A DNA stretch of 64,000 bases from contig CM059560.1 in the NCBI GenBank assembly GCA_030386875.1, forward strand, positions 41,706,757 to 41,770,756. Reading direction: 5' to 3'. Shown piece after piece: positions 16,327-59,825 of this stretch. This stretch comes from Morinoia aosen. Its lineage: Eukaryota; Arthropoda; Malacostraca; Amphipoda; Talitridae. Below the pieces are notes generated by a model. The model was given only the letters and a program-made list of their open reading frames with translations, ran no database searches and had not been told where the DNA came from. The position numbers and the translations under genes are program-made. The number at the start of each line of letters is the position of its first letter. Position 1 is the first letter of the stretch.

Positions 16327-16710
16327 GGATACAACTATTAAGTCTATGGGAAACCTCTCGTGGGGGTAAAAATATTGTATCTATGAGAATTAACACTCCC
16401 AAGGAGAAACAGTGTGAGGGCCCGAGCTGAAAGTTAGGTAAGCCTTCTTTTTGTTTATATTGAATTTTTTCTTATGTTAAAGCCCACCTTTTTTCGGTTC
16501 ACTGCTGTCCTGTTAGTCAACCCCTGCTACTTTCTTTTTCAACTTTTAGCTTGTTTCATTAAATTTTTCTCAATTTATTGTTACTATGCTTCTTCTGCAT
16601 AGATTCCGCGTTCCCTTATCTCCACACTGAATGGTGCTTTCCTCCTTCCTCTCTTCGGAACGCCTTTTTTTAGCAGTTACGGAAGCTTAAACTAACATTT
16701 TATCTAATCT
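16327..16710 (+). repeat. Dispersed 370-bp family, copy A
   Basis: The 5' end matches other copies (GGATACAACTATT). The core has CCCGAGCTGAAAGTTAGGTA, a pyrimidine-rich middle (GGTTCACTGCTGTCC) and a 3' part with TTCCTCTCTTCGGAACGCC and CTTAAACTAAC. GTAAG at 16438-16442 is a canonical splice-donor-like word. This copy has an extra insertion of about 36 bp near its 5' end. Like copy C it lacks the segment carrying the acceptor-like CAGGAGAT, so A and C form a deletion subfamily. No protein is encoded. Confidence 0.8.
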
Positions 16711-17123
16711 CGTGTCATTGAGAAATAATTCTGCTTCAAGCGCTCCTTTTTTGCGTTGAAAACTTTGGCTAAAGAGCTTTAAAGTTCTGATTAATCATAC
16801 ATAGTACGCACAAAATTTCGATTAAATTCCATGCATTGTATTTAAATGCTGCTGAAATTATATTTTAATACGTTTTTCAGCATCATCCTAGAAAAAATTC
16901 AGGGAATATTTTCTCGAACTGACGTCATGAAGCTCTCATGTAAGCCTTTAACGTGAACTTTTTTTTACCCATATTAGCGTCACAACAACCGCCGTCATTA
17001 GTCTGGTACTGGCATAAGGTTGTCACCGACGTCTGGATGAGGGAGAGTCCGGCACTCGTTAGTGAACTTCTTAGAGCACATTGAGGATCAAATTGAGCAA
17101 ATGATACAATATATCATACATAT
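16711..17123. other. Unique AT-rich spacer
   Basis: Low-complexity AT-rich sequence with no recognised feature. Confidence 0.4.
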
Positions 17124-17142
17124 AAAAAAAAAAAAAAAAAAA
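17124..17142. repeat. Poly-A tract
   Basis: Nineteen consecutive A residues. It lies about 70 bp from the 3' side of the minus-strand SINE but reads as T on that strand, so it is not the SINE's own A-tail. Confidence 0.9.
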
Positions 17143-17214
17143 GGTTAACATCGGCATCTTTGGGATGCTTTATTTCCAATCAAGCCTGATACATATGATC
17201 TTAGCATTGGTTTT

Positions 17215-17430
17215 TCAAATGTCTTATAACTAAGCCTATATATAGGACACCATGACGGTTCCCCCGTAAAGCCGGTACCCATTTCCGACACCTGGGTTGA
17301 GTGGGGTATTGTGCTTGAGCTTTCCCTTATACCCAACGGGGAAAATCTTCGCGCCAGCGCTGGGAACGAACCCGCGACTTCCAGCATACAAGTCCGATCC
17401 CTTAACCGCTGTGCCACGGAGAGCACTTCA
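17215..17430 (-). mobile_element. tRNA-derived SINE
   Basis: On the minus strand, a Pol III A box (TGGCACAGCGG, at 17406-17416) is followed about 34 bp later by a B box (GGTTCGTTCCC, at 17362-17372). The segment between resembles a tRNA anticodon arm. The acceptor stem cannot be paired, so it is not a functional tRNA. Downstream on the same strand is a tRNA-unrelated body (GTGTCGGAAATGGGTACCGG). This fits a tRNA-derived SINE, which is transcribed by RNA polymerase III and mobilised by a LINE. A diagnostic 3' tail and target duplications are not obvious, so the 3' boundary is approximate. Confidence 0.75.
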
Positions 17431-17556
17431 AAATAGGGTGTGTATTTAAAGGAGGACTGAATAGTCCTCAAAAAAGATATATACAACATATTAAGCATTC
17501 TATATGCAGTATATACTTAAAGGACTAAATAGTCCTCTTGAACGTTAAAGGGTTAA
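17431..17556 (-). mobile_element. TTAA MITE, family 2, partial
   Basis: Read on the minus strand, the end at 17556 is TTAACCCTTTAACGTTCAAG followed by the palindromic word GGACTATTTAGTCC. The element at 59287-59515 has the same order: TTAACCCTTTAACGCCCAAG, then GGACTGTACGGTCC. A second GGACTATTCAGTCC lies at about 17455-17470. The other terminus is missing; the SINE sits where it would be expected. Inferred truncated piggyBac-like MITE. Confidence 0.65.
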
Positions 17557-18772: not shown

Positions 18773-18827
18773 GTGCCTCAAATTGACTCCCTAAAAAATA
18801 CGCCGGTGTTCAGTAGGGCTCTTCTCC

Positions 18828-18855
18828 CTGCATGCCGCCAGCTCGCGGCATGCAG
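18828..18855. other. Perfect 11-bp hairpin
   Basis: CTGCATGCCGC and GCGGCATGCAG form a perfect 11-bp stem around a 6-nt loop (CAGCTC). It lies just upstream of a tandem duplication in a GC-rich patch. Role unknown. Confidence 0.8.
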
Positions 18856-19406: not shown

Positions 19407-19755
19407 CCATTACTCTACCGATGGAAATAAGCTCTCCCAGAGGGAAAATGGTGAGGTCCCGAGCTGAAAGTTCGGTAGGTTTTTTTGCTGAAATAAAATG
19501 TTTTTGTTTTGTTAAAAACCATCTTTTTTCGATTCACTAGTGTACTGTTTTTCAGCCCCTCTGATTTTTTTCTTCGAATTTTATCGTGTTTCCTAACCTT
19601 CTTTCTCAGCTAACTGTTTCAATTCGCAGGAGATTCAGTGCGGGAATACACCTTGGAGCATAGGTTCCGCGTGTTCTTAACTCCACACTAAACGGTGCCT
19701 TCATCCTTCCTCTCTTTGAACATTTTTGTTGTAAGAGAAGCTGGAACGCACTTCA
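19407..19755 (+). repeat. Dispersed 370-bp family, copy B
   Basis: Carries GGTCCCGAGCTGAAAGTTCG, the pyrimidine-rich core and the 3' block TTCCTCTCTTTGAACA. A donor-like GTAGG begins at 19475 and an acceptor-like CAG ends at 19629 before GAGATT, giving an intron-like core of 155 nt. No open frame is shared with other copies. Confidence 0.82.
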
Positions 19756-21619
<1,864 letters not shown>

Positions 21620-22049
21620 GCTCCCTTACTACCTCAGAGCGTGTTTTAAAAAAATGCAAGAAACGGAGTCGGATTCGACTCCGTTGGGTCGGACTCAACT
21701 CCAACGGCCGTAATCGACTCCCGACAGGTTTTCCTCGACTCTGATGAGTCGGACTCGACTCAGAAGTGTTTGAATCGACTTAGAAGAGTCTTTTTCGATT
21801 CAACAGAGTATTTTCCGACTCAGATAAGTATTTTTCGACTCAAAGAAGACTTTTCCGACTCAGTAGGTCCAGACTCGACTCAGAGGAGTCGGACACTCGA
21901 CTCAGAAGAGTCGGACGAGACTCAGATAATTCAGATTTGACTCAGGAAGGGTGAATCTTAACCTCCTTCTAACTGCCATTTTGTGGCTCCCTTACTACCT
22001 CAGTGTGTGTTTTAAAAAAATGCAAGTAACGGAGTCGGACTCGACTCGG
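21620..22049. repeat. Degenerate 20-bp satellite with 366-bp duplication
   Basis: Diverged units of the neighbouring GACTC/GAGTC satellite fill about 21665-21950. The leader CTCCCTTACTACCTCAG plus GTTTTAAAAAAATGCAAG occurs at 21620-21665 and again at 21986-22031, offset 366 bp, each time followed by ACGGAGTCGGA. The array-plus-leader block was therefore duplicated before one side was homogenised. Confidence 0.8.
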
Positions 22050-23935
22050 ATGCGAGTCAGACTCGACTCGGACGGGTCAGACTCGACTCGGACGGGTCAG
22101 ACTCGACTCGGACGGGTCAGACTCGACTCGGACGGGTCAGACTCGACTCGGACGAGTCAGACTCGACTCGGACGGGTCAGACTCGACTCGGACGGGTCAG
22201 ACTCGACTCGGACGAGTCAGACTCGACTCGGACGAGTCAGACTCGACTCGGACGGGTCAGACTCGGCTCGGACGGGTCAGACTCGGCTCGGACGGGTCAG
22301 ACTCGACTCGGACGGGTCAGACTCGACTCGGACGGGTCAGACTCGACTCGGACGGGTCAGACTCGACTCGGACGGGTCAGACTCGACTCGGACGGGTCAG
22401 ACTCGACTCGGACGGGTCAGACTCGACTCGGACGGGTCAGACTCGACTCGGACGGGTCAGACTCGACTCGGACGGGTCAGACTCGACTCGGACGGGTCAG
22501 ACTCGACTCGGACGGGTCAGACTCGACTCGGACGGGTCAGACTCGACTCGGACGGGTCAGACTCGACTCGGACGGGTCAGACTCGACTCGGACGGGTCAG
22601 ACTCGACTCGGACGGGTCAGACTCGACTCGGACGGGTCAGACTCGACTCGGACGGGTCAGACTCGACTCGGACGGGTCAGACTCGACTCGGACGGGTCGG
22701 ACTCGACTCGGACGGGTCGGACTCGACTCGGACGGGTCGGACTCGACTCGGACGGGTCGGACTCGACTCGGACGGGTCGGACTCGACTCGGACGGGTCGG
22801 ACTCGACTCGGACGGGTCGGACTCGACTCGGACGGGTCGGACTCGACTCGGACGGGTCGGACTCGACTCGGACGGGTCGGACTCGACTCGGACGGGTCGG
22901 ACTCGACTCGGACGGGTCGGACTCGACTCGGACGGGTCGGACTCGACTCGGACGAGTCGGACTCGACTCGGACGAGTCGGACTCGACTCGGACGAGTCGG
23001 ACTCGACTCGGACGAGTCGGACTCGACTCGGACGAGTCGGACTCGACTCGGACGAGTCGGACTCGACTCGGACGAGTCGGACTCGACTCAGACGAGTCGG
23101 ACTCGACTCAGACGAGTCTGACTCGACTCAGACGAGTCGGACTCGACTCAGACGACTCGGACTCGACTCAGACGACTCGGACTCGACTCAGACGACTCGG
23201 ACTCCGAGTCGGACCCGACTCAGACGAGTCGGACCCGACTCAGACGAGTCGGACCCGACTCAGACGAGTCGGACCCGACTCAGACGAGTCGGACTCGACT
23301 CAGACGAGTCGGACTCGACTCAGACGAGTCGGACTCGACTCAGACGAGTCGGACTCGACTCAGACGAGTCGGACTCGACTCAGACGAGTCGGACTCGACT
23401 CAGACGAGTCGGACTCGACTCAGACGAGTCGGACTCGACTCAGACGAGTCGGACTCGACTCAGACGAGTCGGACTCGACTCAGACGAGTCGGACTCGACT
23501 CAGACGAGTCGGACTCGACTCAGACGAGTCGGACTCGACTCAGACGAGTCGGACTTGACTCAGACGAGTCGGACTCGACTCAGACGAGTCGGACTCGACT
23601 CAGACAAGTCGGACTCGACTCAGACGAGTCGGACTCGACTCAGACGAGTCGGACTCGACTCAGACGAGTCGGACTCGACTCAGACAAGTCGGACTCGACT
23701 CAGACGAGTCGGACTCGACTCAGACGAGTCGGACTCGACTCAGACGAGTCGGACTCGACTCAGACAAGTCGGACTCGACTCAGACAAGTCGGACTCGACT
23801 CAGACGAGTCGGACTCGACTCAGACGAGTCGGACTCGACTCAGACGAGTCGGACTCGACTCAGACGAGTCGGACTCGACTCAGACGAGTCGGACTCGACT
23901 CAGACGAGTCGGACTCGACTCAGACGAGTCGGATA
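22050..23935. repeat. 20-bp GACTC/GAGTC satellite
   Basis: About 95 units of 20 bp. Variants are strictly zoned: ACTCGACTCGGACGGGTCAG to about 22690; ...GGGTCGG to 22950; ...GAGTCGG to 23080; then ACTCGACTCAGACGAGTCGG. A register break at about 23205-23220 (ACTCCGAGTCGGACCCGACT) is followed by four GGACCCGACT units and then uniform repeats. In the last two zones each unit is self-complementary (CGACTC...GAGTCG), so single strands can fold into serial hairpins. The unit lacks stops in all three plus frames, which explains the 535- and 131-codon Ser/Asp/Arg-rich frames; these are not treated as genes. Confidence 0.96.
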
Positions 23936-23937
23936 AA

Positions 23938-28258: not shown

Positions 28259-28260
<2 letters not shown>

Positions 28261-31150: not shown

Positions 31151-32053
31151 AGAGTGAGTACTGGTCGGTCAGCAGCCCTATGGAAATCCCATCTGTGGTC
31201 ACCGGTGGCGTTCGTTGAAGTGTATGCTCCAATTCCCCGTATTACCGTGGAGAAACCCGCCAACAGAGATACAGACAGGAGCCTCGTGATTTAGAAGACA
31301 TTTTATTTAGGCAGAGACATTCTTGCCACCGTTATAGATGTACTCGTGTCGTTTTAGATCTCGGTACACACACTTTCAGGCATTTCCTTCCTTCTTTGTG
31401 ACGATAGCGCCAAATTATGAAGCCCATAGGCACTTTCCCCACTTTGGGTGTTTAAGCAAACAAGCGAACGCAAACCAGGCCAAGCCCACGCACTTTATTT
31501 TCTCGGCTCAACTTCGGGGTTTTGTGTGGTCCACTCTCCAGCAATTTTACTTCTACCTTACAATTTCGGAGCTGTTCTTGCGCGCCAAGTTCATGTGAAA
31601 TTCATGCTTGGATTTCATTAAAAAAATTTACTTGAGTTTAAGATTTTCGATTCTGGAACCTATTTGCTTAATTTGCCATCTACATTTCAGACGTTGATAA
31701 CTCTGGCATAATTCAGAGCAATTATTTTGTAACCATTTGGATGGATTTAGGCTTTAATTGTGCGATGAACATGCGCCCCAAAAAATTCCAGCCTTCAAAG
31801 TTTTTGAGTAAATTTGATATTTCGCTCAATACTTGATTATTTTGGTTTAGTAATTTTTCCGACTGTTACGGTAATGCTGAATTAAGAGCTTGAAAATATT
31901 CCAGAAAAATCCCCTCTTGATAGTTTCAAATAAAACCCTGGTAAGTAATTGCTACTAATTTCAACGCCACATTCTTTTTAATACTCAAATAATAATTTAT
32001 ATCAAACAGCTTCCGAAGACGCTTTTGATCTAAGAAAATTTTTCCCCTCAGTG
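31151..32053. other. Unique AT-rich sequence
   Basis: No gene recognised; an 86-codon plus frame at 31338-31598 has no known domain. Confidence 0.4.
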
Positions 32054-32400
32054 GGATACAACTAGTGTGTTAATGGGTAATGGCAGTCCCAGGGGGGAAA
32101 TGTGTGAGAGCCCGATCTGAAAGTTGGGTAGGCCTTCTTTTTGTTGAAATGAAATGTTTTTTGTTATGTTAAGGACCACTTTTTTTGGTTCACTGCTGAC
32201 CTGATATTCAGCACCTACTACTTTCTTCTTCGACTTTAAACTTGTTTTATAATCTTTTTTCTCGACTTACTGTTTTTATGCCCTTTCTGCAAAGATTCCT
32301 CGTTCCCTTAACTCCATACTAAATGGTGCTTTTCTCCTTCCTCTCTTTGGATCGCTTTTATGGCGGATAGGGAGGCTTAAACTAACGAATAATCGAACCT
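32054..32400 (+). repeat. Dispersed 370-bp family, copy C
   Basis: Nearly full length: GGATACAACTAGTG, then CCCGATCTGAAAGTTGGGTA, GGCCTTCTTTTTGTTGAAAT, GGTTCACTGCTGACC, TCCTTCCTCTCTTTGGA and GGAGGCTTAAACTAACG. Like copy A it lacks the acceptor-like CAGGAGAT segment. Confidence 0.85.
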
Positions 32401-33945: not shown

Positions 33946-34147
33946 AACATCGATTCGTGATTGTTTTTCGTTGATTGAAATTGGATAAAAAAACGCTTTT
34001 AGAAATCAGCCCGTTTCTATGGTTCACTAGTTTGTTCCTCGCGTTCATCAAAAGCATCCTTAGCGCTCTTTTCCTGAACTTTCGCGACGCTGCTTGGTGA
34101 CTTCCGCTCTTACGAAGTACCACATCCCCTTCACGTTTGTCCCTCAC

Positions 34148-34400
34148 GAGACATACAACTATGGGAACTAGCGCTCCAATGGGGAAAATGTGAGGTCCTC
34201 AGATGCGAGTTAAGTATACCTTCCATGTGTTGAAATGAAATTAGGATTTTTTTATTAATGGTTATCCTTTTTGGTTCACAGCTGTCCTCTTTCAGCACCT
34301 TTGACTTTCTTATTCAGCTTTTATTTATCTGGTTTCATAAACTGTTTTCTTAAATTACTCTTTTTATGCACAGGGAATCTTGTGTGGGAACAAATCACTT
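34148..34400 (+). repeat. Dispersed 370-bp family, copy D
   Basis: The 5' part (GACATACAACTATGG), core and acceptor-like region (TTTATGCACAG then GGAATCTTGTGTGGGAACAA) are present. The 3' third is missing. Confidence 0.75.
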
Positions 34401-38470: not shown

Positions 38471-38494
38471 TATATTGATACCATCTCTTCATCC

Positions 38495-38880
38495 GGATAC
38501 AACTATTTTATCAATGGGAATTAGCGCTCTCTAGAGAGAAAATTAGAGAGAAAATATGAGTCCCGAACTGAATGGTAGGTAGGCCTTATTTGTTGAAACT
38601 ACGTTTTGGTTTTGTTACCGACCATCTTTTTTCCGGTTCACTGCTGTTCTGCTTTTCAGAACCTCTGACTTTCTTCTTCAACTTTTAACTTTTCTCATAA
38701 ACTTGTTTCTCTACTTACTGCTGTTTCTATGTGTAGGAGATCTTATGTGGAAGCACTCCTCAATTGTGCATGGATGCAGAGTTCCCCTATCTCCATACTT
38801 AATAGAGCCTTCCTTCTTCCTATCCTTGGAACGCCTTTGTTGTGGTATGAGAGACATCTAAATTAACTTATCTAAATCTA
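38495..38880 (+). repeat. Dispersed 370-bp family, copy E, inside the LINE
   Basis: Full length: GGATACAACTATTTTATCAA, CCCGAACTGAATGGTAGGTA, GGTTCACTGCTGTTC, TATGTGTAGGAGATC, TTGGAACGCCTTTGTTGTGG. The donor-like GTAGG starts at 38579 and TAG ends at 38736, an intron-like core of 158 nt. It lies between the LINE linker and RT pieces, so it was added to, or inserted within, the LINE. A target-site duplication is not evident. Confidence 0.85.
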
Positions 38881-39215: not shown

Positions 39216-39610
39216 ATGTATGGGGACATATTGCGCATAGATTCCCTATTCCCTCAATTCCAAACTGAATGGTGCCTTCTTCCTTCCTCTTTTGGGGCCC
39301 CTCAAAGGTCTCGAGCGGGAGATTAGGCGGGCCTTATTTTATAAAAAAATTGGATTTTGTTTTATTCCCGCACACCTTTTCGCGGTTCATTGTCTTTTTT
39401 TCAGAACCTTCTACAATCATCTTCAATTTTTAGCTCGGTTCATCAACTCGCTTCCTAATTTGCTGTATTTATACGCAGTGATCTTCTGTGGGAGAACACC
39501 TCGTGCATAGATTTCCCGTTCCCTTAACTCGTCACTAAATGGTTCATTCTTCTTTCCTTTTTTTTTTTTGAACGCTTTTATTGTAGTTCAGCAGGCCCAA
39601 ACTAGCGTGA
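39216..39610 (+). repeat. Dispersed 370-bp family, copies F1 and F2
   Basis: F1 (about 39216-39295) is only a 3' part (GCGCATAGATTCCCTATTCC, ACTGAATGGTGCC). It is followed directly by F2 (about 39305-39610), which has GGGAGATTAGGCGGGCC, the pyrimidine-rich core, TATACGCAGTGATCTT, AACACCTCGTGCATAG and CCCAAACTAGCG. This head-to-tail arrangement suggests tandem duplication or two insertions at one site. Confidence 0.75.
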
Positions 39611-40610
39611 GATCTATTTACAGCTCGCAAAAGCGCAATCCATATTCCTTAATATATAGGAAACATCAGAAATTCATCACTAGCTCTAGGTTTTTGGTCT
39701 TTTCGAGTTTGAGAGTTAGAAAATCACTCATTATTCGAGTTAATTTGAGGCGTACGCAGCCCGTCACTCCCGACACCCACTACACCATGTGAAGGGCTTG
39801 AGCGCATTATTCATTCATATATTCAAATATCGACGAAGACATAAAAGAGTGAAGACGGTGCGTGGCCGCCGCTTGCTTCCGTAGCTTACGCGCTTTTCAT
39901 TACGGTTTTAAGACACGGTATTTTCGGGCAAATGGTTTTCCTTCTTAATTACTTGATAATAAAGTTTGATAAACGCATGTAAAGTTCGTCATAAAATGCT
40001 CCCTATCGCCACCATCGCCACCAGCTCAGAAACGCGTAAAGTCAGTTTAGCCAGCTCGCGAAATTCTTTGCTTTCCGCTTTTTTGCGCTTAAACTTGAGC
40101 ACCCGAACGCGATGAGGAATTAACGACGAGTTTTAAACGCTCTCGAAAATGAGCTGGTTTCATGCATTTCACTTCCTGCAATTCACATGAAACTTTTGCT
40201 TCTTCCAGTAATCCGCTTGCGTTCGAGCCCCTCGGCTCGCTCTCGTCATAGCACAGAGTAATGTCTGCTCAGATTCAAGTTTTATATGTTGTTCGTTCGA
40301 AAATTGTGCGTTTTTTATTTTTGGTCTTTATTGCTTTTTGAGTTTTTGATCTCGGTCGTTCAAACATGAAGATTTCATGCATTTTGCTGCATTTTGTCGA
40401 CTAGCATCTCGCTAATGTAGGCACATGCAACAATCCAAACTACGCTAAAATGTTTTTTTCCTTCATGCATCCTCGAAATAATATCGCGTGTCTATCTGTG
40501 TGTTTCTCGCTCGTATAGCCCACTCCCAATGGACCGCAATTCTAACAATGAATATTCTTTTGTCATTCTCACCCGGTAATTGCATTGAGATGAGCAATAA
40601 AACTGAAGTT
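39611..40610. other. Unique sequence, nothing recognised
   Basis: AT-rich to moderate composition; short frames without recognisable domains. Confidence 0.35.
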
Positions 40611-43149: not shown

Positions 43150-43405
43150 GGCATCCCCAGAGGAGATACTCTTAGGTTCATTTGGGACTTCTATCTTTCG
43201 TGCCTACTCTACTTTTTTTCCGTTTCTATATCTTCTTCATCTCTTTTCTGTATTTTTCTTCCTCTTCCTTCTTAAGCTGTTTTTATGAGGAGGGTTTTAT
43301 CCGTGGGATCACACCTTGTGCATAGATTCCCTTCCCCAGCCAATGGTCCCTTCTTTCTGCTCTCATGAGATCGCCTTTGCTATTGCTAGGGGGTCGTTGA
43401 CTAAC
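43150..43405 (+). repeat. Dispersed 370-bp family, copy G (decayed)
   Basis: The 3' part is recognisable (GGGATCACACCTTGTGCATA, then GATTCCCTTCCC and TGAGATCGCCTTTGCT). The 5' part is replaced by a degenerate pyrimidine-rich run. Most diverged copy in the window. Confidence 0.55.
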
Positions 43406-45336
43406 ATAATTTTACCAATTTTCAATGTCTTTCTTTCATTCAATTCCGCTTTGTTTCACGATCAATACATTTTTTGCTTTTGCATTCTTTGCACGTCACA
43501 CATTTTTGTTCAAGAAAAATTACAGCTGCAAAATTTTCGTATGCAATGCTAATTAGTGAACGATTGCCAGTGCTGTAATAAACTTAATTTGTTTTTAAAA
43601 TAAGTTTTGATTTTATGTTTACCATGTGCACAGAATCTTTCCTTATTCTGCATTCCTCCAATGAGTGAGAGAAGCATAAAGAAGTATGAGACGTGTGTGT
43701 TCTAATCATTTGCTTTTACAATGATCGATCTGTGCAAGTTTTTATGCTTAGTATATTTTTTGTAGCCCCATATAACCTCTATGTGTTCTCTACAAGATAT
43801 TGTATGTTTCTTTTGCGCCTGATAAATAAATTCAAGCTTTTATTCATTTGTTGTGTGACGCACGTGTGTGTACGTGAACGAGTTTATACATATCGTCATG
43901 GGTAACACACGTTTATAAAACGCGAGAAATAACGCAGTAAATAGTATTCTGGTGAAATTTATATTACCATGCCTCTCATACTTTCGGTCTAATTTTCGAA
44001 GGCTACAAACACTGCATTAAATAAAGACAACAAAAATGTATCCGGTATAATTTGAAGTACACAGATACCATGCACTCCCATTCAGTAACTAAGTCGATTT
44101 TCTTTCAATATTGAGAAGACGAGGAATACACCTCGTCAAATTACGAGTATTTGAAGAGTGACAAGCCGTCGTTGGTTCAATGGTGGCACTGATTTATCCC
44201 AAATGAGACTCTCTTTAACGGCGCGCTGTGTGTGGATGAATGCTGCAGTCACCAGAACATCTGCAGCCTTGTGCGCCGGTCCTTCTTTTGCCAGGAATTA
44301 GAGCACTTAGTAAACAAATCCTCGTGTATTGATCTTTTGCTTTAAGCGAGACTTTTGCCTTCTATGAAAGGTGTTTGAGCAGCCCATAAAATGTGTAATG
44401 ATAGAGCGCCAAGTGCACGAGCTCATACACACCCGAGTTAAAGTGTTTGTTTAAAGATTATGTACGCACAACATACCTGGTTGTGAAGCGCGCATCTATA
44501 ATGACTTCACTTGACTTCTGATGTGTGACTCGGACTCGAGAAAACATATCATGTCAGATTCAAACTCTTGGAGGTTGTTGCCGAATCTGGAGTACTGCAA
44601 TTCGGAGCAAGGAGTCGAAACGTCGTGAACTTTCATATGACTCAGTTTTATTTCAATTTCGGACTGATGAACATCTTTCCGCTAGCGTAATACCACAAAT
44701 TTAGTCACATTTCACGTATGGCGTAAGAATATTGAGTTCATTTGACAAATTTACCTGCCGTGCGTGGGCTGCATTGTAATACAGTAGAAATTGAGATCAT
44801 TTACAGTCAATACGCACGGTATGTTCCAGCGCTCACTTACTCCCAAACAAACACATACCACTGCTAACAGCGCATGTGAATGTGTCAATCACACATTTCC
44901 CGGAATATGAAATTACGATATCGTCGACTGTGAAATCTTCCACTTGAGTTTGCAGGTTGTCCTAAAATGCGTGTTGAATTCCGACTGGAGTGTTTAGGTG
45001 TCTCACGGCTGGAAAGCTAACTGATCTCGAGCTAGAAACGGGCCCATCTAAAAATAAATATTCACCTCGTTGGGTCTGGTGCTCTTGCACCTCTTTTCAA
45101 AAAGTCAGAACTGAGGGACGTCAATTTGTGAGCAAATAAACATTATGTAGATCACCTGTGCGTGCTTCTATTTAGGTGAAAATTCTAATGAAAAATTTGA
45201 GATCGCGGCAATTTCTACTTCTGCAATCCTATTTATAGCTCTTGTATTCGTACTCGAAAAGTATGTGTGTTCCTGCAGTGTACCTTTCTAGATCTGTAGT
45301 ATTTTTTCAAAAAAGGTAAGTTTTATTTAAGAAAAG
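43406..45336. other. Unique AT-rich sequence
   Basis: No gene, RNA or structured repeat recognised. Confidence 0.4.
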
Positions 45337-46740: not shown

Positions 46741-49712
46741 GTAGCTGAGAGCAGAAGTATAACCTCAGTTATTTGTATTTCATTTGTATGCATTTTGCGA
46801 GTGCCATCCTCGGATTTAGTTCTTCAAAATCAAGCCACGTTTTGCACACATGCAAGTTTGGACCCATAGAGCAGTCGACCTCATTCCTTGGAGATAGTTT
46901 TCCATTTCGAAGTTGATTTTTCTTGCCCAGCTTTGGCACTTCAAGCGCCGTGATGTGCATTTGGACGAGTATTTGAAGAATGGCTTTCAGATGACCGAGG
47001 CAGATTCTTTTGAGAGAGTTTCAGATTTTAAGCTGCGGAGCCTGCTTCGAAGGCTCTCTGGAATGCTCTTGAGCTCAAAGAAACCGTGTTCATGGATATT
47101 ATGATCATTTTATTAGCAGGTGAGAGGGTTTCTTTTCACAGCTTAGGACTGTGTTTGAATGCCCAACACTGGCTTCTAAAACCAAACAGAGACTCAAGTT
47201 CAATAGCCCTTGCCGGCAACTGTAGAACAAAAGAGCCTCGTTTTGCTTCAGTCAAACTCGTGAGTCTCAGAACTTGCTCTTCGGAATATGCTGTTGCGCA
47301 AAACGTTCTCTCTATTCTGGTTTTCAGGTCGAGTTTTCCACAAGATCTAAATAATGGATCTTCGAGACCCATCATTACATGAATTTGATGCTTTTAACCA
47401 TAACTCAGTTCCTATTATTACCCAAGAATTAAGGTGCACTGTGGAAAAGGAAACAATTAAAATACTTTATTTGAACGTTTTCCTATTGATTAACGCATCT
47501 AGAAGTAATAAATGAAAACGAACATTGTACAGAACTAATCAACAAAAATATCAATAGCTGTTCGAAGAAGTGATCCCAGTATCTTCATTATATCTATGCT
47601 ATGCTATTTCTTAAATTGCACTCAAGAAAGAGTGCACGCACTAGCCACTGTTATACTGAGTACATTGCAAGAAAAATCAATGCAACAAGGGCTTAATTTA
47701 CTACCAAAACGCTCTTTAGAATTGTTCCTACTTTAAGAGTAACTTTACATCGGTTTAATCCTGAACAAGGAGCACTAGACACCTTATTTTGCTTTTTGGG
47801 GCCATACAAGCGCTCTTCTTTAGTATAGATATACACCATAAAATCTGTATTGTATAAATTACAAATGTGAAGAATTCGCTGCTCTCGTCCATTAGTTGAA
47901 TCAGCACATCAATGACTACATTTTGAAGCTTATCTTCGTGTGATAGATGCTTACGACCTAATTTAAATGTTTCAGTAACTTTGTTTTGCAATTTACTTAC
48001 CTTTAATGATTAGCTCTTAAATTTATCTTTCGGCCGCAAACGACATGCGTAGAAGGGAGCAGCAAAGGACCCGTATCCGTGCTTTAATGTTGATTGTATC
48101 AGTGTTCAACACCATTATTATTATTATTTTGAGAGCTTGGAATACAGTGCAAGTAAAAATAAATTAGGTTACCCAATTAATGTGAGGATCTCTAGCTGCT
48201 CCTAATATCAGTATGGGATTTGATGAAATAAAGAAATCACAAGCAAAAATATCATGTCATCTCAACACCACTGTACAGGCCACAAGACTTACAGTTTGCA
48301 TTGCTCGCTGCGAGCGCTTATGCGGTGCGCGTGATGGTGAAGTCTCCCAAAGTGTTAATTAAGATCTACGTATGCTTTGTTACTAATAACTCGTATTTAT
48401 TACGATCCATAGCTACCACCCCTGAATACTTCCCACGACGCCTTTCACGTTTAATTTTTTACTTCCTCGATATCACAGTGCCGGTTTCAAATGTAATACT
48501 AAATGATTATTGACGAAAATTGGATGAGAAAGAACAATGCAAATACGATTATGGTATTTCATCAAAATGTAATTATATTTATGGTACAATAACCACAATG
48601 TCAAGTAAGTTTTGACCTCTCGCAGTGAGGACGCGATACTGTACAGCACTGATGAGTCGTCTCCAGTCAGAGACCGCATCCCCTTCTTGCTCAACAAACA
48701 CTCGCGCCGCAGCGAGCGCTATTGAACCGTTTGTAGAAGTTCCACACCAATTCAAAGTTGAGATTGGTGGTCGTTTCGACCCATTACCCTCACAAAGGTG
48801 GCGACGACAACTCTTTAGTGGCGTTCCAATTGTCGGCCCTGCGTTGCGTCCAAACTAATGCGTTTCATGCATCGCTATCGACGACGACTTGTGTACTGCT
48901 CGATGGAGACATGAGTGATTTTGGCTTGCGCAGCTGCAAGGTCACGTATATGTAAAAATTCCCGCCTATTGTGTACTTCGTTTAGTAGTTGTAGGGTTGA
49001 CGTAGGTCTGACGGCTCTTTTTTACGAATATAGAGGTACAAGTCGAGTATTTTGATGGCTCTCATTACATTCGAATGAATCTTTCGCGGTGGTCGAATGG
49101 CTCACTAAAGAAAATATAAACAAAACATTTTCTTTCAACGGTATGTTGGGCTGACTTTAATTATTTTTTTGGGCGGTAGGGGAATATTAGTACTATGCTT
49201 AAAAAACTACGGATATTTATGAACATTCAGTTTTTCAGCAAGAATAGAATGTGATAAAAAGAACGAAGTGAATGGCCCATTCCCGCCATTGCCACTAAAC
49301 TTTGAGGCTGTGAAGATACCAATCAGGCAATAATATATTCGCTTAACACAATAATAATATATGCTCGAAAAAAGTTCTCGTAGTGATTTCACCAGTTAAT
49401 TATTTTTATATACACCGTTTCTTAAACACCACTCATGAGCAGAGCTATATAAGGCAATTAGTGGTTCCTCTTTGAATTATTTTAAGCTATGTTAGTCACA
49501 CGTACGAGCAAGCTAATTTGATACTGGGCGGTGCAAAAGAAGTGGAGGTGCACATCTAGAAGGCGTTCGCGCAGGCAGAACTCTATCAGAGCAACGCATT
49601 TCTTCTTTCAGGGAACACTGATCATCCTTTTAGGAATGATAACTCTGATATTTTGGGTTTAGCCCACATGCAGCGCGTCTCACCTCTGATTTCAGAGACG
49701 TACTAACCCTCA
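46741..49712. other. Unique sequence with one GC-richer patch
   Basis: AT-rich overall. A patch at about 48610-48950 has two overlapping plus frames (77 and 65 codons) with no recognisable domain. A 98-codon plus frame at 47086-47382 is mirrored by a minus frame. No gene is supported. Confidence 0.35.
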
Positions 49713-50063
49713 GGGATGTATAACTACTCTGGAAATCAGTGTTCCTCTGGGAAAATGTGAGGCACTGAGCTGAGGGTTAGGTAGGCAGTCTTTATATGTT
49801 AAAACAAAATAGGTTTTTGTTTTTTACGGGCCTTTTTTCGGCTCACTGCAGTCTTATATCTCAGCACCTATTGCTTTTTCATCTTATCCTTGAACTCTCT
49901 TCTTAACTTATTGTTCCTATGCGCGGGGAATCTTGCGTGAGAACACATCTTGTGTACAGATTTTCAGTTCTCTTAAAGCCATACCCAATGGTGTTTTCAT
50001 CATTCCTCTCTTTGGAACACAATTGTTGAGGTTAGGCTCAAACTAACTTGTAATAAAATCCGG
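49713..50063 (+). repeat. Dispersed 370-bp family, copy H
   Basis: Full length: GGATGTATAACTACT, GGGAAAATGTGAGGCACTGA, GTTAGGTAGGCAG, GGCTCACTGCAGTC, TCCTATGCGCGGGGAATCTT, AACACATCTTGTG, TTCCTCTCTTTGGAACAC, GCTCAAACTAAC. The donor-like GTAGG is kept but the acceptor-like AG has become GG. Confidence 0.85.
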
Positions 50064-53120: not shown

Positions 53121-55367
53121 GTGATTCAGATATTAATTTTCTCCTATATTTCATTTTTCAAGCCATTGTGCGCATTCCAGTATTTCAGACTAGGTGTAAA
53201 TCACCTCTGTTTCATTTCTCCTCCCGCCGTTCAAAACAGCAAGGCATACTGAATCGTTTTAAAATCCTTGCTTAAACAATGCGGAAGTACTCCTGTGCAT
53301 GATTACTGCACATGAAATGAATTCAGAACGCGCGTCTGGAACCGAAGAATTCACCTCCTGGTGAACACCTAAGGAAAAGAGTGGGGAACTACAGGAACAT
53401 GTACATCCGATCCGACTCATCACATCTGCGGAATGTAGGCTACATGTCATTCTCTCATGTAACGCTGCTGGTGCTAACGTCTGCTGCTCTTTTCTCATTC
53501 GCATAAATCAGTGACCTGATATTTAAACGATTTCGTGAAACCTGAAGTTTGCGACTATGGTTTCGTTTGGTTTACCGTAAGAGCAAATTTGTCTATCAAT
53601 TTCGATAGAAATTTACCCGGTTTGTTTATTGAAGAAAATTTTACAGATCGACTATGGTGAACGTAATTCCGAAAATTTTTAATTTTCTGTTCCACGTATG
53701 CTAATGTACTGTATTATTTCTCACGATCACAGTGTTCATACGCACGGTTATGTCGAAATATTTAGCCGCTCTTGGTCTGCGAGTAGAGCGATACTCAATT
53801 CGTATTCTTTGGAGTTACAATTATAACAGTTCATTGCACCATGAGGAGACCTATACGGAACGAATCTCTTCTTCATCGCTGCTTCAAACTTTCTTTTCGT
53901 AGACACAGCTGTGAACGAGTTTGGTACGTTTCTGTTGTAACCATACTCAAAATATCATAAGAGATAGACTTAGTGGACGATAGGGTATGGATACGAATCG
54001 AACCATTCAAAATAAATTATCAGGAAACCGCATAAATGCGATTGAGTTGTCAACTTCAAGGACGACTGGGAGATGCCAACTTTGATAGCCAGTCACGCCA
54101 TGCTCTAGAATGCTGGTATTCCTCTACTTACCTGTAATGCGTCGAGACAAGGCGCTCGCATAGTGACGGAGTTCTCATGTTCAACTGACATCTCGGAGAC
54201 TCGCATCAGACTGCGAGAGGTGCCCGCTTATCCTGTCTTGTCATGGTGCACTGTAGTAAGTAGCTCACTCCTGGCTCTATTTCGCACGCAGAGGCAGAAC
54301 AAAGGAGGAGTTTGTGCACTGCACTGACGGCTAATTGAGCCATGCATGCAACTACACAGGCAGACTTCAGCTTCAATACGTACATGCATATACATATAGG
54401 TATTTAGAGAGAGGCTCCTTCATAATGAGATGGACGCCTGTCGAGCTTCCTATAGGAATAGCTTGCCTTTGTCCCTCCATCCTTTGAAGGCTTTGGTCTG
54501 GTCCATCTTCGAGCCGTGATATCATTGTCCAGAGGCGTCTTTGACCGAACGCCCGGCCGTGTCGAGTCAAATTCTGCTTTGTCCTACGACGTTCCTCTAG
54601 CGTTATATTTGAAAATGGCAATAAGGCCAAGGCATTTTTAATTAACCAAGCCAAATTTTGTTACCTCTGTAATTGTTAACATTGTGGACGATCGAACACA
54701 TGTATTCCTACGGTAAATTTTCGGATTCTATCATTCTTAATTGACGAAGAATTTGAAGTATCTGCAATAAACCCTCATGTGTAAAGCGCCAGATGGTGAG
54801 CAATTCAGTTTTATTCCCGACGTCTATTATCCAAAATGAAATGTGCGCAAATTCTCCGCAATTATACAAACTAGAGAATTTTGCACCCACACGTGAGAAC
54901 GGATAGAAATATTCTCAAAAGTATAGAGTCGCTCACGAAATCTAGCGCTTCTTTTCTATTTTTTTTTTTTAATTTCTCTATATTGGCTGGAAGTCCTCTG
55001 AAGAAAAATAGAATTTAGTAATATTTTGTACACTTTAAAATATTCCATGAATAAGTATTTGAAAACAATAAGTTTCAAAATTATAAATATACCTTGATCT
55101 TCACTTCACCAAGACCAATTACGTCTAATGTGGGAAAAAATTTCATTTTCTCGTTCTCTTTTCAGTGGGTGTATTCTTTCATCACGAAATTGCATGATTT
55201 ACCTACTCACTGAAATTTCAATCGACAAAAAGCTCTAAATTGTCCCTAAAACACTATATGAAACGTAAATTGGCCGACACTGACTTGTATGTTGTATATG
55301 TTAATAAATTATACCCAATCCTTACGTAACGACAAAACTATTCACTTTGCCCCTTCATGGACTTCAT
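53121..55367. other. Unique sequence, nothing recognised
   Basis: AT-rich; open frames up to 93 codons (54373-54654 minus) without recognisable domains. Confidence 0.35.
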
Positions 55368-56665
55368 GGAGACATAACTATTGTTTTCATGTGAGTTAGT
55401 GCCCCCATGAGAAAAATCCCAGTCGAAAATTAGCGCAGTTGGGCGGGAGAATTTTGGCAGTTTTTCGCAGTGATCATAGTTTTAAGACGAATTCCAGCAG
55501 TTCACCGCAGACAAATGCGTGGGAGTCAATTCTAATAGCGTTTTTTGGCAGACCTCAGCAGTAATCGTCTACAGTCGAATTGAAGCAGATAGTTCTCTGT
55601 TGGCCTTCGTCGTTCGCAGCAGTAAATGCCTCGGTCGAAAACAGGCAGTAACAGATGTGCTTCTACCTTTGGCCCGCTGTACATTTACTTCAGTTAGCCC
55701 TCAAGTTTTATTTGTATTATATTTCAACATCCTTACATTAGTCTGATTACCTAGCAAAATAGCACAAATATTCTACACGTAGTTTTACGTGTTTTTGTTG
55801 TGTTACGCAATAGTTTGTTTATGCGCGTTATTTTCGCAAAAAAAAATAAATTACTCTATTGGTTGAAATGTATCTATTTCAGGCGGGCGGTAAAGGTATT
55901 TTAAGTGATAGACGGTAATAACTCGTTAAAAGTAGCCCTGAATTCAATATACGAGACGGTGAGTTCGATTGGACACCCTCGAATGGAGCTTTTGGCTGGA
56001 AAATAGTAGGGAAAACATTTTGTTACAAAAGTTGCTCTTGAAGAAAGATATGTTGTAGATCAGTGAATCAGGAATAATCTTGAGATTTAAATTATTGTTT
56101 GCAATTATCTATTGTTGACAGTCGATTTTTAAATGGTACAAGGATTTTAAAATTATGTAAGCCGCATAACAATGTAGAGCAGTTCCAGGCAGATCTAAGC
56201 AGACGTTCTCGCGAGTGCCGCCGACAGCCTCGGCAGAGATAGTCGTCCCTAAAGCGGACCTAGCGACCGCTGCACTGCGCTGTCACTGCGCTGCGACGCC
56301 ACTAACTTCAGCCAAAAACGTCAAGAAACTGCCAAAAAACTGCGCTGATTTTCAACTGGGATGTGAGGTTTCAAGCTGAGAGTTATCCGAAGGCGTTTTT
56401 TTTTTGTTGATACAGAATAAGTTTTTGGTTTGTTACGGACCATCATTTTCCGGTTCACTGCTGTCCTTTTTTTTAGCAGCTTTTACTATCTTCTTCAATT
56501 TTCTTGAACTTCCTTTCTTACTGGCTATTTCTATGCGCAGGAGATCATGAGTGGAAACACACCTGGTCTATAGATTTAACCCTATATAATAACAGTGCCT
56601 TCATCCTTCCTCTTTTTGAAACATCTTTGTTGTGGTTGGGAAAGCTTGAACTTTCTCATAATCGA
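55368..56665 (+). repeat. Dispersed 370-bp family, copy I, split by an insertion
   Basis: The 5' piece (55368-55417, GACATAACTATTGTTTTCAT then GTTAGTGCCCCCATGAGAAA) and the remainder (56361-56665, ATGTGAGGTTTCAAGCTGAG, GGTTCACTGCTGTCC, TATGCGCAGGAGATCATGAG, TTGTTGTGG) are separated by the 943-bp element at 55418-56360. Joined across the gap, the pieces match the order of intact copies. Confidence 0.85.
55418..56360. mobile_element. 943-bp non-autonomous inverted-repeat transposon
   Basis: Termini CCCAGTCGAAAATTAGCGCA (left) and, on the opposite strand, CCCAGTTGAAAATCAGCGCA (right) match at 18 of 20 positions and continue into CAGTT. The flanks are AT on each side. The interrupted host repeat has one AT there, so a 2-bp AT duplication is inferred. 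Both subterminal regions are packed with GCAG/CTGC words (about eleven in 55436-55655), like transposase-binding subterminal repeats. A 75-codon frame inside (55519-55746) has no recognisable transposase domain. Superfamily uncertain. Confidence 0.8.
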
Positions 56666-57013
56666 ATCAAATCGAAACATTTTTCCAAAGTCAAGTCATT
56701 TCTTTCGATATTTCAAAGCTTGCATAACGCTTGCAACTGCACAAATATGTTCCGTGTGCGGGAGCATAATTTAAGAATTTATTTATTTATGAATTTATGT
56801 TATGCGTGTTTCGCAGCGCAGACAACTTCTGAAACATATACAGAACTCAGAAAATAAAATTAAACCGTTCAATATAACTATGCCTGCAGTTCTACCTATA
56901 AGCAACCATAATTAACTACGCAACATATTGTTCTGCCAAATAAAATGGTGCGATCTATTTTTCAATCTGTGGAAAAATTTGGGGTTAATAAATAACTCTG
57001 TGACCGATGAAAA
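56666..57013. other. Unique AT-rich spacer
   Basis: No feature recognised. Confidence 0.4.
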
Positions 57014-57380
57014 GGATACAACTATTGTATTTGTAACAATTGGAGCTTCTTGAGGACGAATGTGAGGTCACAACCTGAAGGCTAGTTAAGCCTTCTTTTT
57101 GTTAGAATAAAATAAGTTTTTATTTTCCTACAGACTTTCTTTTTCCGATTCTCTGGTGTTTTTTTAAACATATTTATTTTTCAATTTATATTTTTTTCCA
57201 TAAACTTTAGTCAGTCATACTATTTCTGTGCGCAGGATGAGGAGACAACTTATACATAGATTCCCCTTCTCTTAATTAAATCCATTCTAAACGTCTCTTT
57301 CTTCCATCCTCTCTTGGGAACCATATTACTGTAATTAGAGAGGCTTAAACTAACGTATAATCTTAAACTAACGTATAAAC
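57014..57380 (+). repeat. Dispersed 370-bp family, copy J
   Basis: Full length: GGATACAACTATTGTATTTG, GGTCACAACCTGAAGGCTAG, TTCTGTGCGCAGGATGAGG, TATACATAGATTCCCC, GAGGCTTAAACTAACGTATA. The last motif is duplicated (CTTAAACTAACGTATAA twice, about 20 bp apart). Confidence 0.82.
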
Positions 57381-59250
57381 TAAGTTTACGATAATGCAGA
57401 TTTGTACAGTAAACATTTCAGTAGATTTTTAGCTCGTTCGGTACAGTGGAGTGAATAATCTCCAGCGCATTCGTAATTCAATCCAATATCAATTTTCAAT
57501 CCATTCTATAAGATTTCATCTAAAAATGAAACTGTAACGGCATCTGAAATAGTAGTCTCGATGCACACAAAGCAAACCTACGCATCACACGCGATGGTCG
57601 TGTACCAAGATCCGTTCCAAGTTCCAGCACACGCTGGCAGCGCCCAAGTGCAGTACAGTATCTCGCGTTCCATCTCCGTTTTAGGCCTCGGAAGCGCTGA
57701 GCAAACTGGGCCCTGCAAAACAGAGCTATTGCTCACGGCTCTTGTCAATACCGCCCTCCCGGACAACCGAGGAAATTTTCTACGCCGTTATTCTCGAGAG
57801 AAATTTTCTTGCAAGCTTTGTGAAGCGCTTCTGCCATTCCCGCTGAGCGGCCTCTTCTGCGGGGCGCTGGCACGCATCCGCTGCCATGGTCTCATGTGCA
57901 GGGATGTGTCGGGATTCTGCTCTAACATGCCTAACTCCCAAGAGGCTATTGGAATATTTATATCATTATAGGACAACAATAGCGCTTCAACAAAATTCTC
58001 AGTATGATGCCGTTGTCCATTACCACCGATGTTTTTCAGTTTCTACTTATAGCTGCAACCCTCTGTAGCACATCTATGCATCTCTTACTTAAACATGTCG
58101 CAACGTATTTATTAGGTATTTGCCTTGAATTTGAAGCCATTTCGTGGCGTTCAAATGAGTTACCTCGAAGAATTTGTTGCTCCTGAAACTCGTCATGATT
58201 GAGTTCACCAAGAAGTACTTTTTTCAGTTGGGCGTACAGTCTTCAACATAATTAAATTCATCAATAACCTGATTCATTAATACTAGCGACAAGCATTTCA
58301 TACACATATGTCACCATAAGTAGAAACGATGCATGACTTTGCTTCTCCACTCGCATCATGCATGAATAACTGTTTTCCTCGAATTCAAGGGAAATGCGGT
58401 ACTGATAAAACTGATTTTTTCCTGTTCCAAGAAATTTCTTTAGACTTCACATTGGAGATCGGAGAGTCGCGGATCCATATAGCCGATACGTCTTGCTTTG
58501 CTAGCCTCGCCATTGGTCTCTGACGACAGACTGCCACTGGAGAGAGGGTTGAGAGTGCGAGTGAGAGGGTCCAAGTAAAGCGGGGTGGAGAGGGTCATAC
58601 ACAGCGAGGGAGACGATCGAAGCGAGAGAGAGAGGGAGAGTGAGAGACAGAAGCAGAAGAAGGAGAAGAAGGAGGACGCAGTATCGGCATGGTTCTCTTT
58701 GTATTGCAGCTGGAGCTCGAATCCCTTGAGACGAATTGCTAGCTCGGGCGCCATTTTGCTCGAGGCGACTATCAAAGAGATAAATTGAATCGAGGGCATG
58801 CATTTGGCACTGCGACGCTATTGGATCTCAAGAAGCTTTGAGAGCGACGGGCTCGAGAGCTTATACTTGCATGCCTTCATCGAACGTGCTAGGATTTCCT
58901 ATAAAATCGAGTCGCGAAAATATTTCCCAGAAATATCGCTCGCCTCCAGATTCCTCTCAAAATAGCGAATAAAGTTCCATGACGTTATATGTAGCAAATT
59001 AGCAAAATATGAAGTTATTTTCGAGTGCCTATCGCTGTGGTTCTTTTCATCACGGGGCTGCTGAAAGACATGACCAGCCTTGACTCAAAATTACTTCAAA
59101 GATCTTCAAGTTCAGCTGTGACTTATCTTGGACTCTGTAACACGAACACAAACGAGAACTTATCGGTCAACCACAGATGTCGGGCGAAATTTGCTTTCAC
59201 ACCTTAGAACTACGTCGTTCTATATATGGTCACTGGAATCCCCTGAGGAA
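57381..59250. other. Unique sequence with two GC-richer patches
   Basis: 57560-57930 contains the longest non-repetitive ATG-initiated open frame in the window (136 codons, plus, 57561-57971). It is Cys-rich toward its end but has no recognisable domain, and minus frames overlap it. 58600-58680 is a GA-rich microsatellite-like tract. No gene is supported. Confidence 0.3.
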
Positions 59251-59825
59251 GGTATAACCATCCGTTACCATCGTATGTACGGATAATTAACCCTTTAACG
59301 CCCAAGTGGACTGTACGGTCCTCTTTCAAAAATAACAATAATATATTGTATTTCTTATTCAATTTGTTCACTAATGTGTCCTTTGAACTCCACTGCCGAG
59401 TGGCAGTTCCTTCCACATCTTGATAACAGTGACTACCTATTGCCAGTGTCGGTTTAGTGATAGTGGTTGTGGTAACGGTAATATGAGTATAAAAATGTGG
59501 GCGTTAAAGGGTTAAGCCCCCAATAGGAAAATGTGAAGTCCCGAGCTGAAAGCCCTCGTTAAAATAGAACAGGTTATTATTTCATTACAGCCTTTCTTCC
59601 TTCGGTTCACTAGCTGTTGCTCTTTTTCAGCATCTTTTACTTTCTTCAACTCTCGTCTTGCTCCATATACGCTTCTTCCAGTCTCGTTGTTCGAATACGC
59701 AGTGTGTGGGGTTACCTTGTGAATAGATTCGCCGTTCCTATTCCCATGCTAAGGGGACTTCTTTTCTTTCTCTTTTGTGAACGCCTTTCTAGTGGTAAGG
59801 GAAGCCTGAATGATTTTGGTTTCCT
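59251..59825 (+). repeat. Dispersed 370-bp family, copy K, split by a MITE
   Basis: The 5' piece (59251-59286, GGTATAACCATCC, TACGGATAA) and the 3' piece (59516-59825, GAAAATGTGAAGTCCCGAGC, TCGGTTCACTAGCTG, AATACGCAGTGTGTGGGG, GTGAATAGATTCGCCG, TGTGAACGCCTTTC) flank the TTAA element at 59287-59515. Confidence 0.8.
59287..59515. mobile_element. TTAA MITE, family 2, complete
   Basis: A 229-bp element with perfect 18-bp terminal inverted repeats that include the TTAA (TTAACCCTTTAACGCCCA at 59287-59304; its exact complement ends at 59515). A subterminal palindrome-like GGACTGTACGGTCC follows the left arm. It interrupts copy K of the dispersed family at a TTAA site. Inferred piggyBac-like, non-autonomous; a relative lies at 17431-17556. 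Confidence 0.9.

Follow-up and report, generated by a model that had tools for sequence, protein, structure and literature searches.

Local strand uniformity of a SINE-like retroposon family in the amphipod Morinoia aosen and its agreement with the sense of host genes

A 64,000-nucleotide stretch of the Morinoia aosen genome (contig CM059560.1, positions 41,706,757 to 41,770,756; here called the window) contains many copies of a dispersed repeat, raising the question of why all of them point the same way. The initial annotation had described a dozen intron-like copies in one orientation, with none on the minus strand. Both statements on strand hold. An nhmmer search (E < 0.001) with an HMM trained on seven copies from another contig placed 13 of 13 window matches on the plus strand, and the sole minus-strand row had an E value of 5.4. 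The coordinates of the dozen also agree, with one match overlooked, and one insertion may account for more than one match. The motif CCGAGCTGAAAGTTAGGTAG, quoted in the initial annotation, has five matches with up to 3 mismatches versus none in 100 shuffles.

The best-scoring match, at positions 32044..32396 (E 3.3e-100), is a full copy with an imperfect target-site duplication (TSD), ATCTAAGAAAATTTT/ATTTAAGAAATTTTT. Near-full copies lie at 16356..16706 (E 1.9e-84; HMM positions 3-352), 19409..19758 (E 9.8e-64), 38493..38871 (E 7.7e-63), 49707..50055 (E 5.1e-49), and 57013..57363 (E 5.3e-38). The copy at 34143..34370 (E 1.3e-35; HMM 4-238) lacks its 3' third, the one at 39299..39616 (E 4.7e-33) lacks the first ~54 bp and adjoins a 3' fragment at 39227..39297 (E 1.2e-11; HMM 237-307), and the overlooked match at 56360..56665 (E 1.6e-37) lacks the first ~55 bp. 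A partial copy at 43184..43408 (E 2.1e-10; HMM 127-349) was delimited by a second HMM that also takes in the window copies, the first model seeing only 43312-43408 (E 1.5e-5). A 5' fragment of 56 to 71 bp at 55363..55433 was found by both models (E 0.00019 and 3.2e-6, respectively). The match at 59488..59810 (E 7.7e-28) forms the bulk of a copy interrupted by a MITE (59285-59521), which separates it from a 5' piece starting at ~59251 that was identified by eye. All of these are on the plus strand, as is a weak 14th row of the first model at 16326-16361 (E 0.017), a duplicated 5' piece ahead of the 16356 copy.

The family is a non-autonomous, target-primed, SINE-like retroposon of ~355 bp. Its 354-bp consensus (38% T, 22% A) has its putative 5' end at CCCTCAGG, carries a 3' GGGAGGCTTAAACTAAC-TAATC tail of short repeats, and has no open reading frame, the longest stop-free frame being 48 codons. 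TSDs were found at 9 of 25 near-full copies, versus 18 of 600 pairings of flanks taken from different copies; the other 16 had none that passed. The element is thus a short non-autonomous retroposon with TSDs of variable length (9 to 15 bp), and it resembles the LINE-mobilized SINEs with tRNA, 7SL, or 5S heads in length, copy number, lack of an open reading frame, presence on several contigs, and short-repeat tail. It differs from them in showing neither recognizable Pol III A and B boxes nor a match to such a head: the best B-box candidate has 3 mismatches, two A-box-like strings (1 mismatch) have no B box downstream, and T-runs of 4 to 6 lie inside the element. ARAGORN found no tRNA, and none of six weak Rfam matches (E ≤ 5, four loci) is a tRNA, 5S, or 7SL model. 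A MITE was rejected as a candidate because the first 20 bases agree with the reverse-complemented end at only 4 of 20 positions, leaving no terminal inverted repeats. That the sequence belongs to no known family is borne out within Rfam, which gave nothing at gathering scores in the window, and within the literature text searched, where three short stretches of the element had no match and no account of the family appeared among the matches listed.

The 5' RNA may form three helices with four base pairs changed on both sides, a result reached by 6 of 500 shuffles, whereas the consensus alone folds about as well as its shuffled versions (z = −0.16). Release from host co-transcripts is described, in portions of PMC4035085, for retroelements that carry HDV-like 5' ribozymes, and the lack of a detected promoter together with a 5' end that may be structured would accord with such a release here. 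Unlike in those elements, no known ribozyme family was found among Rfam matches at E ≤ 5 in four loci (L001, L002, L004, and L006), although a fold of a new kind is possible.

The description "intron-like" is apt for the splice-like motifs on the sense strand. With a rough PWM, the best acceptor scores +4.7 on the sense strand versus −2.0 on the antisense strand, and the best donor 3.1 versus 5.2; GAAGAA occurs once in the antisense consensus and not in the sense one. The one predicted spliced junction has no genome match at up to 3 mismatches, and retroposition of spliced copies was rejected for that junction. The copies share with introners, as portrayed in extracts of PMC9860276, dispersal, a transposable-element-like character, splice-like motifs, and sense orientation to genes. 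However, introners create introns in genes and have TSDs of 3 to 9 bp, whereas the TSDs here are longer and the copies lie within long inter-exon gaps or in stretches where no exon was found, which does not support an element that is itself the intron interrupting a coding exon.

Roughly equal orientation genome-wide, which the initial annotation had named beforehand as the outcome that would count against it, is what tabulation returned: about 62,600 matches divide 30,942/31,682 between the strands, and further counts gave 17,301/17,615 and 7,590/7,921. The family occurs on each of five contigs among the matches listed. A global strand bias is thereby excluded, and the suggested strand-biased insertion or retention survives only relative to the local transcription unit. 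Locally, adjacent copies 3 to 50 kb apart share a strand in 77 of 98 pairs of a union list (0 of 100,000 shuffles) and in 43 of 47 pairs of one list alone. Among pairs of exact matches, a strand is shared by 15 of 17 lying less than 130 kb apart and by 42 of 86 at greater distances. Strand runs have a z of −5.23, versus −0.26 for a control SINE of tRNA type on the same contig, whose pairs agree in 7 of 13 cases at 3 to 50 kb; a control MITE agrees in 4 of 9 pairs below 50 kb. The strength of co-orientation is uneven from region to region. One run has 21 copies over 742 kb, exceeding most genes in length. In the first 7.2 Mb of contig C1, 21 of 22 pairs of the union list agree at 3 to 10 kb and no more than 22 of 40 do so at 10 to 50 kb, showing that long uniform domains are not universal. 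The order at C1:4.632-4.684 Mb is +++-+-.

The initial annotation had also offered segmental duplication as the means of spread, and local multiplication by segmental or tandem duplication does occur at some loci: a rare variant of locus L006 reappears 252 kb off, and a tract near the window is repeated. As the source of the shared strand it is highly improbable. Nine copies have their own, differing TSDs, for which local duplication is refuted; a masked self-comparison joined the flanks of window copies by no pair, except through a separate MITE family; and copies from one locality are no closer kin than others (permutation p = 0.995, 31 copies).

The orientation of copies tends to follow that of nearby genes. 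In six genes, the copies lying between exons are all sense, apart from one inverted 90-bp piece: RPSA, the C20 and C3 channel genes, and the C1 WD40 gene on the minus strand, and the C7 channel gene and the C18 fn3 gene on the plus strand, the C18 gene being defined by just two fn3 exons 122 kb apart. Another five genes or clusters have their nearest listed copy within 30 kb, and there too its strand agrees with that of the gene (5 of 5), giving 11 of 11 sense (two-sided p = 0.001), or 11 of 12 (p = 0.006) when an RRM gene with a copy at 35.8 kb is added. Farther away, agreement is 1 of 2 at 30 to 60 kb and 0 of 2 at 60 to 100 kb (1 of 4 overall).

Widening the search to 264 kb around the window (w, window coordinate) revealed 20 matches, all plus, spread over ~100 kb from w16 to w117 kb, whereas the 100 kb left of the window contain no match to the family. 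Three minus matches follow at 122.6-127.7 kb, inside the minus-strand gene RPSA, so that the strand switches within ~5 kb (w117.3k to w122.6k). Beyond them, two identical plus fragments lie in the duplicated tract (w132-164 kb). Base skew suggests that the domain of ~16-117 kb is transcribed on the plus strand. Of 13 gene stretches, 12 have more T than A on the coding strand and one is at zero; the sign of plus-strand coding is seen in 11 of 11 bins of 8 kb between w28k and w116k, with RPSA opposite. In the bin at w20-28k, which is mostly satellite, the skew is reversed (+0.075), and across eight 3-kb loci (L001-L008) the skew is negative in five (pooled −0.014, s.e. 0.011). No exon was found in the domain by Pfam scans of plus frames (three of w94-114k, two of w27.5-42.5k) and by codon-usage ranking elsewhere. 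Target composition alone was rejected as a cause: T- or pyrimidine-rich sites are only 1.12 to 1.47 times commoner on the plus strand of the domain, and the probability of 20 of 20 plus matches is then at most 3.1e-5, taking the matches as independent.

The reading we favor, with a probability of about 0.53, is that copies tend toward the sense of the host transcription unit, that insertion is the main source of the bias, and that the window domain is transcribed on the plus strand. Copies of one unit would then share a strand, which would flip where units meet, and the window copies would be plus because the stretch of ~16-117 kb is transcribed that way. Helper machinery may exploit nicks in the transcribed (template) strand or be tethered to elongating Pol II, either of which would leave the sense strand of the element on the coding strand. 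A more specific version, offered tentatively, is a family-specific, transcription-coupled retroposition in which the insertion machinery of a promoter-less element carried in Pol II introns primes on the transcribed strand; nearly all new copies would then enter genes in sense and could be remade from the host transcript.

Most of these data can also be explained by selection. Insertion may be unbiased and antisense copies removed from transcription units, since an antisense element would be purine-rich, bearing donor-like sites together with the splicing enhancer GAAGAA, and so be exonized, while a sense element would be U-rich and intron-like. The T-rich consensus, the single antisense GAAGAA, and the top donor score on the antisense strand fit this possible but doubtful account. 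Published parallels exist: portions of PMC3088655 describe a sense bias of human SINEs 20 to 200 bp away from exons and attribute it to a cryptic acceptor within antisense Alu, and parts of PMC10901741 describe GAAGAA as an enhancer, with same-strand L1 and Tigger insertions exonized upon SAFB loss. Like human Alu near exons, the family shows a sense excess inside genes, and antisense copies would be harmful. The best acceptors, however, are on the sense strand, and co-orientation is present already among near-consensus copies. The human bias is stronger near exons, in the same portions of PMC3088655, whereas the family is uniform over a 100-kb domain; with 20 of 20 matches on one strand and no exon found there, selection near exons is hard-pressed as the cause. 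It is quite unlikely that orientation tracks replication-fork direction, itself correlated with transcription. Very long runs such as that of 742 kb do resemble replication domains, but the switch into RPSA takes ~5 kb and the tRNA-type SINE on the same contig forms no runs. Purging of copies that would form inverted pairs in the same transcript or region (through dsRNA, hairpins, or instability) accounts for local co-orientation, and in the 3- to 6-kb loci read, opposite-strand matches occur only beside a copy (L003, L040). It is very unlikely nonetheless, as it predicts gene strand to be irrelevant, contrary to the sense orientation at all 11 genes or clusters, and the tRNA-type SINE shows no co-orientation.

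In mammals, intronic LINEs and LTR elements are mostly antisense and human SINEs are sense biased only near exons, as far as those portions of PMC3088655 go; the present family differs from its own genome's tRNA-type SINE in showing gene-sense orientation. Tens of thousands of copies, a 100-kb strand-uniform domain, and a second SINE with random orientation provide a natural experiment for deciding whether insertion or selection sets the orientation of retroposons. The family perhaps marks the direction of transcription in unannotated DNA, and if transcription-coupled retroposition is true, its strand runs would preserve, as a fossil map, the direction of transcription in the germline.

A profile was built from seven copies on contig C1 that an exact 20-mer had picked; as the window is on C5, none of them comes from it. 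This profile retrieved 13 matches to the SINE-like family in the window at E<0.001, every one on the plus strand; an eighth locus, L003, had been excluded from it for its only partial match. A second profile that included window copies returned the same 13. This number is an upper bound for the insertions, since one insertion may account for more than one match. The single orientation described in the initial annotation is therefore confirmed with a profile made elsewhere, and its list of copies is right in substance, except that it lacked the plus-strand match at 56360-56665 and that its plus-strand entries at 43150 and 55368 are fragments. The copy at 59251-59810 carries, within its 5' part, a ~237-bp MITE (59285-59521, ends TTAACCCTTTAACGCCC) with relatives at 16940 and, outside the window, at w69509, 79915 and 89541 (w, window coordinates continued into the flanks).

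The family consensus is 354 bp long. Young copies start with CCCCTCAGGGGGATACAACTATTGTATC and end with GGCTTAAACTAACT-A-TAATC; in some of them, TAATC-type repeats come next. Best-match identities between copies span 0.63 to 0.94, showing that they differ in age. Flanking duplications whose end falls no more than 8 bp from the start of the element were found in 9 of 25 near-full copies (L001, L006, L007, L008 and L039 among the loci sampled elsewhere, and w32045, w107930, w114312 and w116071) versus 18 of 600 control pairings, which combined the flanks of different copies; the other 16 had none by this definition. Those of L006 (TTTCTTTTCGAGC), w107930 (ATTTCCTCAGTGT/ATTTCTTCAGTGT) and w116071 (TCCATGCTTTTGA/TCCAGGCTTTTGA) are examples, and the duplications point to spread by target-primed retroposition. 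Inverted fragments adjoin a copy at L003:1310-1653 and L040:399-667, as if cDNA had folded back during insertion. Locus L006 (C1:28561337-28564356) holds 12 full and partial matches within 3 kb, all on the plus strand, and seems duplicated, because C1:28.816 Mb has the same rare core variant.

The consensus has no stop-free frame above 48 codons, and the element contains no B-box at up to two mismatches and six T-runs of four or more. The family is filed as SINE-like, because its hallmarks fit a SINE yet no Pol III promoter was recognized. It fits neither MITEs nor introners, as far as the relevant passages of PMC9860276 describe the latter. In the window, Rfam yielded no match that reached its gathering score; at E≤5, four loci gave six matches, each under its gathering score, the best being isrG (E 4.2e-6), outside the element, and another, CrcZ (E 0.37), overlapping an element fragment in L006. 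The 5' head may be structured: columns 2-54 of the copy alignment (A1), the first ~54 bases of the element, contain the hairpins GATACAA-TTGTATC and TGGGA-TCCCA, and CCCCT-GGGGG as a possible closing helix, and these show a few compensatory changes. Among the papers listed by literature searches, none described the family sequence or any SINE family forming strand runs of this kind; these searches covered papers, and the family may already be catalogued in Dfam or Repbase.

Across the 1.99-Gb genome, the 20-mer CCGAGCTGAAAGTTAGGTAG with up to three mismatches has 30,942 forward and 31,682 reverse matches (21/22 for the reversed pattern as control), TTCAGCANCTNNNACTTT 17,301/17,615 (control 57/81) and ATACAACTATTGTATCTATG 7,590/7,921 (control 0/0). 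Because these counts are near equal, the family has no global strand preference, and the polarity that the initial annotation saw in the window does not extend genome-wide. Locally, the copies are co-oriented. Among the first 100 matches listed for TTCAGCANCTNNNACTTT, spanning 7.2 Mb of C1, 50 of 65 adjacent pairs closer than 50 kb share a strand, which 3 of 200,000 shuffles reach. The first 100 listed for ATACAACTATTGTATCTATG, spanning 13.8 Mb, form 25 strand runs versus 51 expected (z -5.23), including runs of 21, 14 and 13 copies, with a shared strand in 43 of 47 pairs at 3-50 kb. In the union of both lists (180 copies), adjacent pairs at 3-50 kb agree in 77 of 98 cases (0/100,000 shuffles), and among the exact matches listed on C1-C5, 15 of 17 pairs within 130 kb share a strand versus 42 of 86 above. 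The effect is uneven across C1, the long runs lying at 10.7-13.8 Mb. In its first 7.2 Mb, 15/15 pairs below 3 kb and 21/22 at 3-10 kb agree in the union, but only 22/40 at 10-50 kb; the series +++-+- at C1:4.632-4.684 Mb is one of the counter-examples.

Two other families served as controls. A SINE at 17201-17440 of the window, in reverse orientation, appears from its sequence to be tRNA-type; ARAGORN called no tRNA in the window. Its core has 7,111 exact matches genome-wide (3,590/3,521), and among those listed it forms 49 runs versus 50.3 expected, with 7/13 pairs agreeing at 3-50 kb and 2/2 below 3 kb. A TTAA-flanked MITE (735/753 matches) agrees in 4/9 listed pairs below 50 kb, 7/8 at 50-100 kb and 10/13 at 100-200 kb. 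Measured against the nearest listed copy of the SINE-like family, the strand of the tRNA-type SINE agrees in 5/12 cases and that of the MITE in 4/7. The SINE-like family differs from the tRNA-type SINE (43/47 versus 7/13, p 0.004) and from the MITE (p 0.002 with 48/52 from the ATACAACTATTGTATCTATG list, 0.037 with 77/98 from the union), so that, on small control samples, strand runs at close range are a trait of this family.

The orientation of the copies tends to follow that of nearby genes. Within 100 kb on each side of the window, the left flank holds a dachshund gene on the minus strand (Ski_Sno_DHD, E 3.6e-34; PDB 1l8r) with no family match over its ~70 kb or more (w-97000 to -24500). From w16,356 to w117,276 all 20 family matches are on the plus strand. 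A minus-strand RPSA/uS2 gene follows at w118-125 kb. Three minus matches come next, two of them lying between RPSA exons (w122,614, E 0.0037, and w123,480) and one at w127,404. Further along C5, w151120-164000 contains a 5.7-kb stretch with LTR-retroelement frames and, 7.2 kb further, a second copy at 99.98% identity.

Thirteen intron stretches of 5-6 kb were sampled from genes located by Pfam; eight had no family match. In the other five, the matches in two stretches (L031, L039) of a minus-strand channel gene on C20 and a 3' fragment in another such gene on C3 (L037) are minus, the match in a plus-strand channel gene on C7 (L038) is plus, and a plus-strand fn3 gene on C18 (L040), assigned from two exons 122 kb apart, has four plus matches and one 90-bp minus piece, head to head with a plus copy and probably a foldback of one insertion. 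In a minus-strand WD40 gene (C1:16.886-16.892 Mb), an exact match at 16,888,169 (minus) lies between two exons. With RPSA, copies between exons are thus sense in 6/6 genes (two-sided p 0.03), where exons were assigned to one gene by order and strand. Further, anchors for genes of four families on C1-C5 (59 after merging by hand, the WD40 gene among them) were compared with the exact-match lists and part of the ATACAACTATTGTATCTATG list; 52 have no listed copy within 100 kb. Among the matches listed, strands agree in 3/3 cases within 10 kb, 4/4 within 30 kb, 5/5 within 60 kb and 5/7 within 100 kb. Of 18 RRM_1 anchors compared, four clustered minus-strand hits (C1:4.26-4.31 Mb) have minus nearest copies (3.3-12.4 kb), a C2 gene agrees with a copy at 21.8 kb, and a plus hit at C1:4.236 Mb disagrees with its nearest copy, minus, at 35.8 kb. 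Overall, where a gene or cluster has a copy lying between its exons or at most 30 kb away, a limit set after the distances were seen, the two agree in 11/11 cases (p 0.001), or in 11/12 (p 0.006) once the disagreeing RRM_1 gene is added; at 30-100 kb agreement is 1/4.

Base skew, measured with tandem repeats and family copies masked, suggests that the window domain is itself transcribed on the plus strand. T exceeds A on the coding strand in 12 of the 13 gene stretches (down to -0.124), the thirteenth being at zero. The skew is not due to the SINE-like family, because the eight stretches without a match average -0.080 versus -0.048 in the five with one. From w28k to w116k, 11/11 8-kb bins are negative (-0.009 to -0.072); the w20-28k bin, mostly satellite, is at +0.075, the dachshund region at +0.021 and the RPSA region at +0.084. 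Pfam, on part of the plus frames, and codon ranking gave no exon in the domain, so the unit may be a gene for a non-coding RNA or one whose exons escaped these scans. The window also holds a 9.4-kb array of a 42-bp unit (4930-14342), a perfect (AC)615 array (20197-21426) and tandem arrays of the 20-bp GAGTCGGACTCGACTCGGAC (22032-23933), of 155/313 bp (24447-26438) and of 62/94/156 bp (60686-63987).

T- and pyrimidine-rich motifs are 1.1-1.5-fold commoner on the plus strand within the domain, too small an excess for target composition to cause 20/20. Local hopping is disfavoured, as copies of one locality are no closer relatives than others. Selection would act against antisense copies in transcription units: read in antisense, the element is rich in purines and contains GAAGAA and donor-like sites, which passages of PMC10901741 link to exonisation in mammals, and those of PMC3088655 describe antisense Alu as disfavoured near exons. 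However, the domain is uniform in strand although no exon was found in it, and near-consensus copies are already strand-biased. Insertion bias is thus tentatively placed somewhat ahead of selection, with confidence slightly lowered by the weak agreement at 10-50 kb in the first 7.2 Mb of C1. In the usual target-primed scheme, the transcribed strand has to be nicked first for an insertion to be sense. Nicks on that strand, exposed by transcription or arising from repair, could lead to sense insertion of the SINE-like family, and a different helper LINE may leave the tRNA-type SINE without strand bias.
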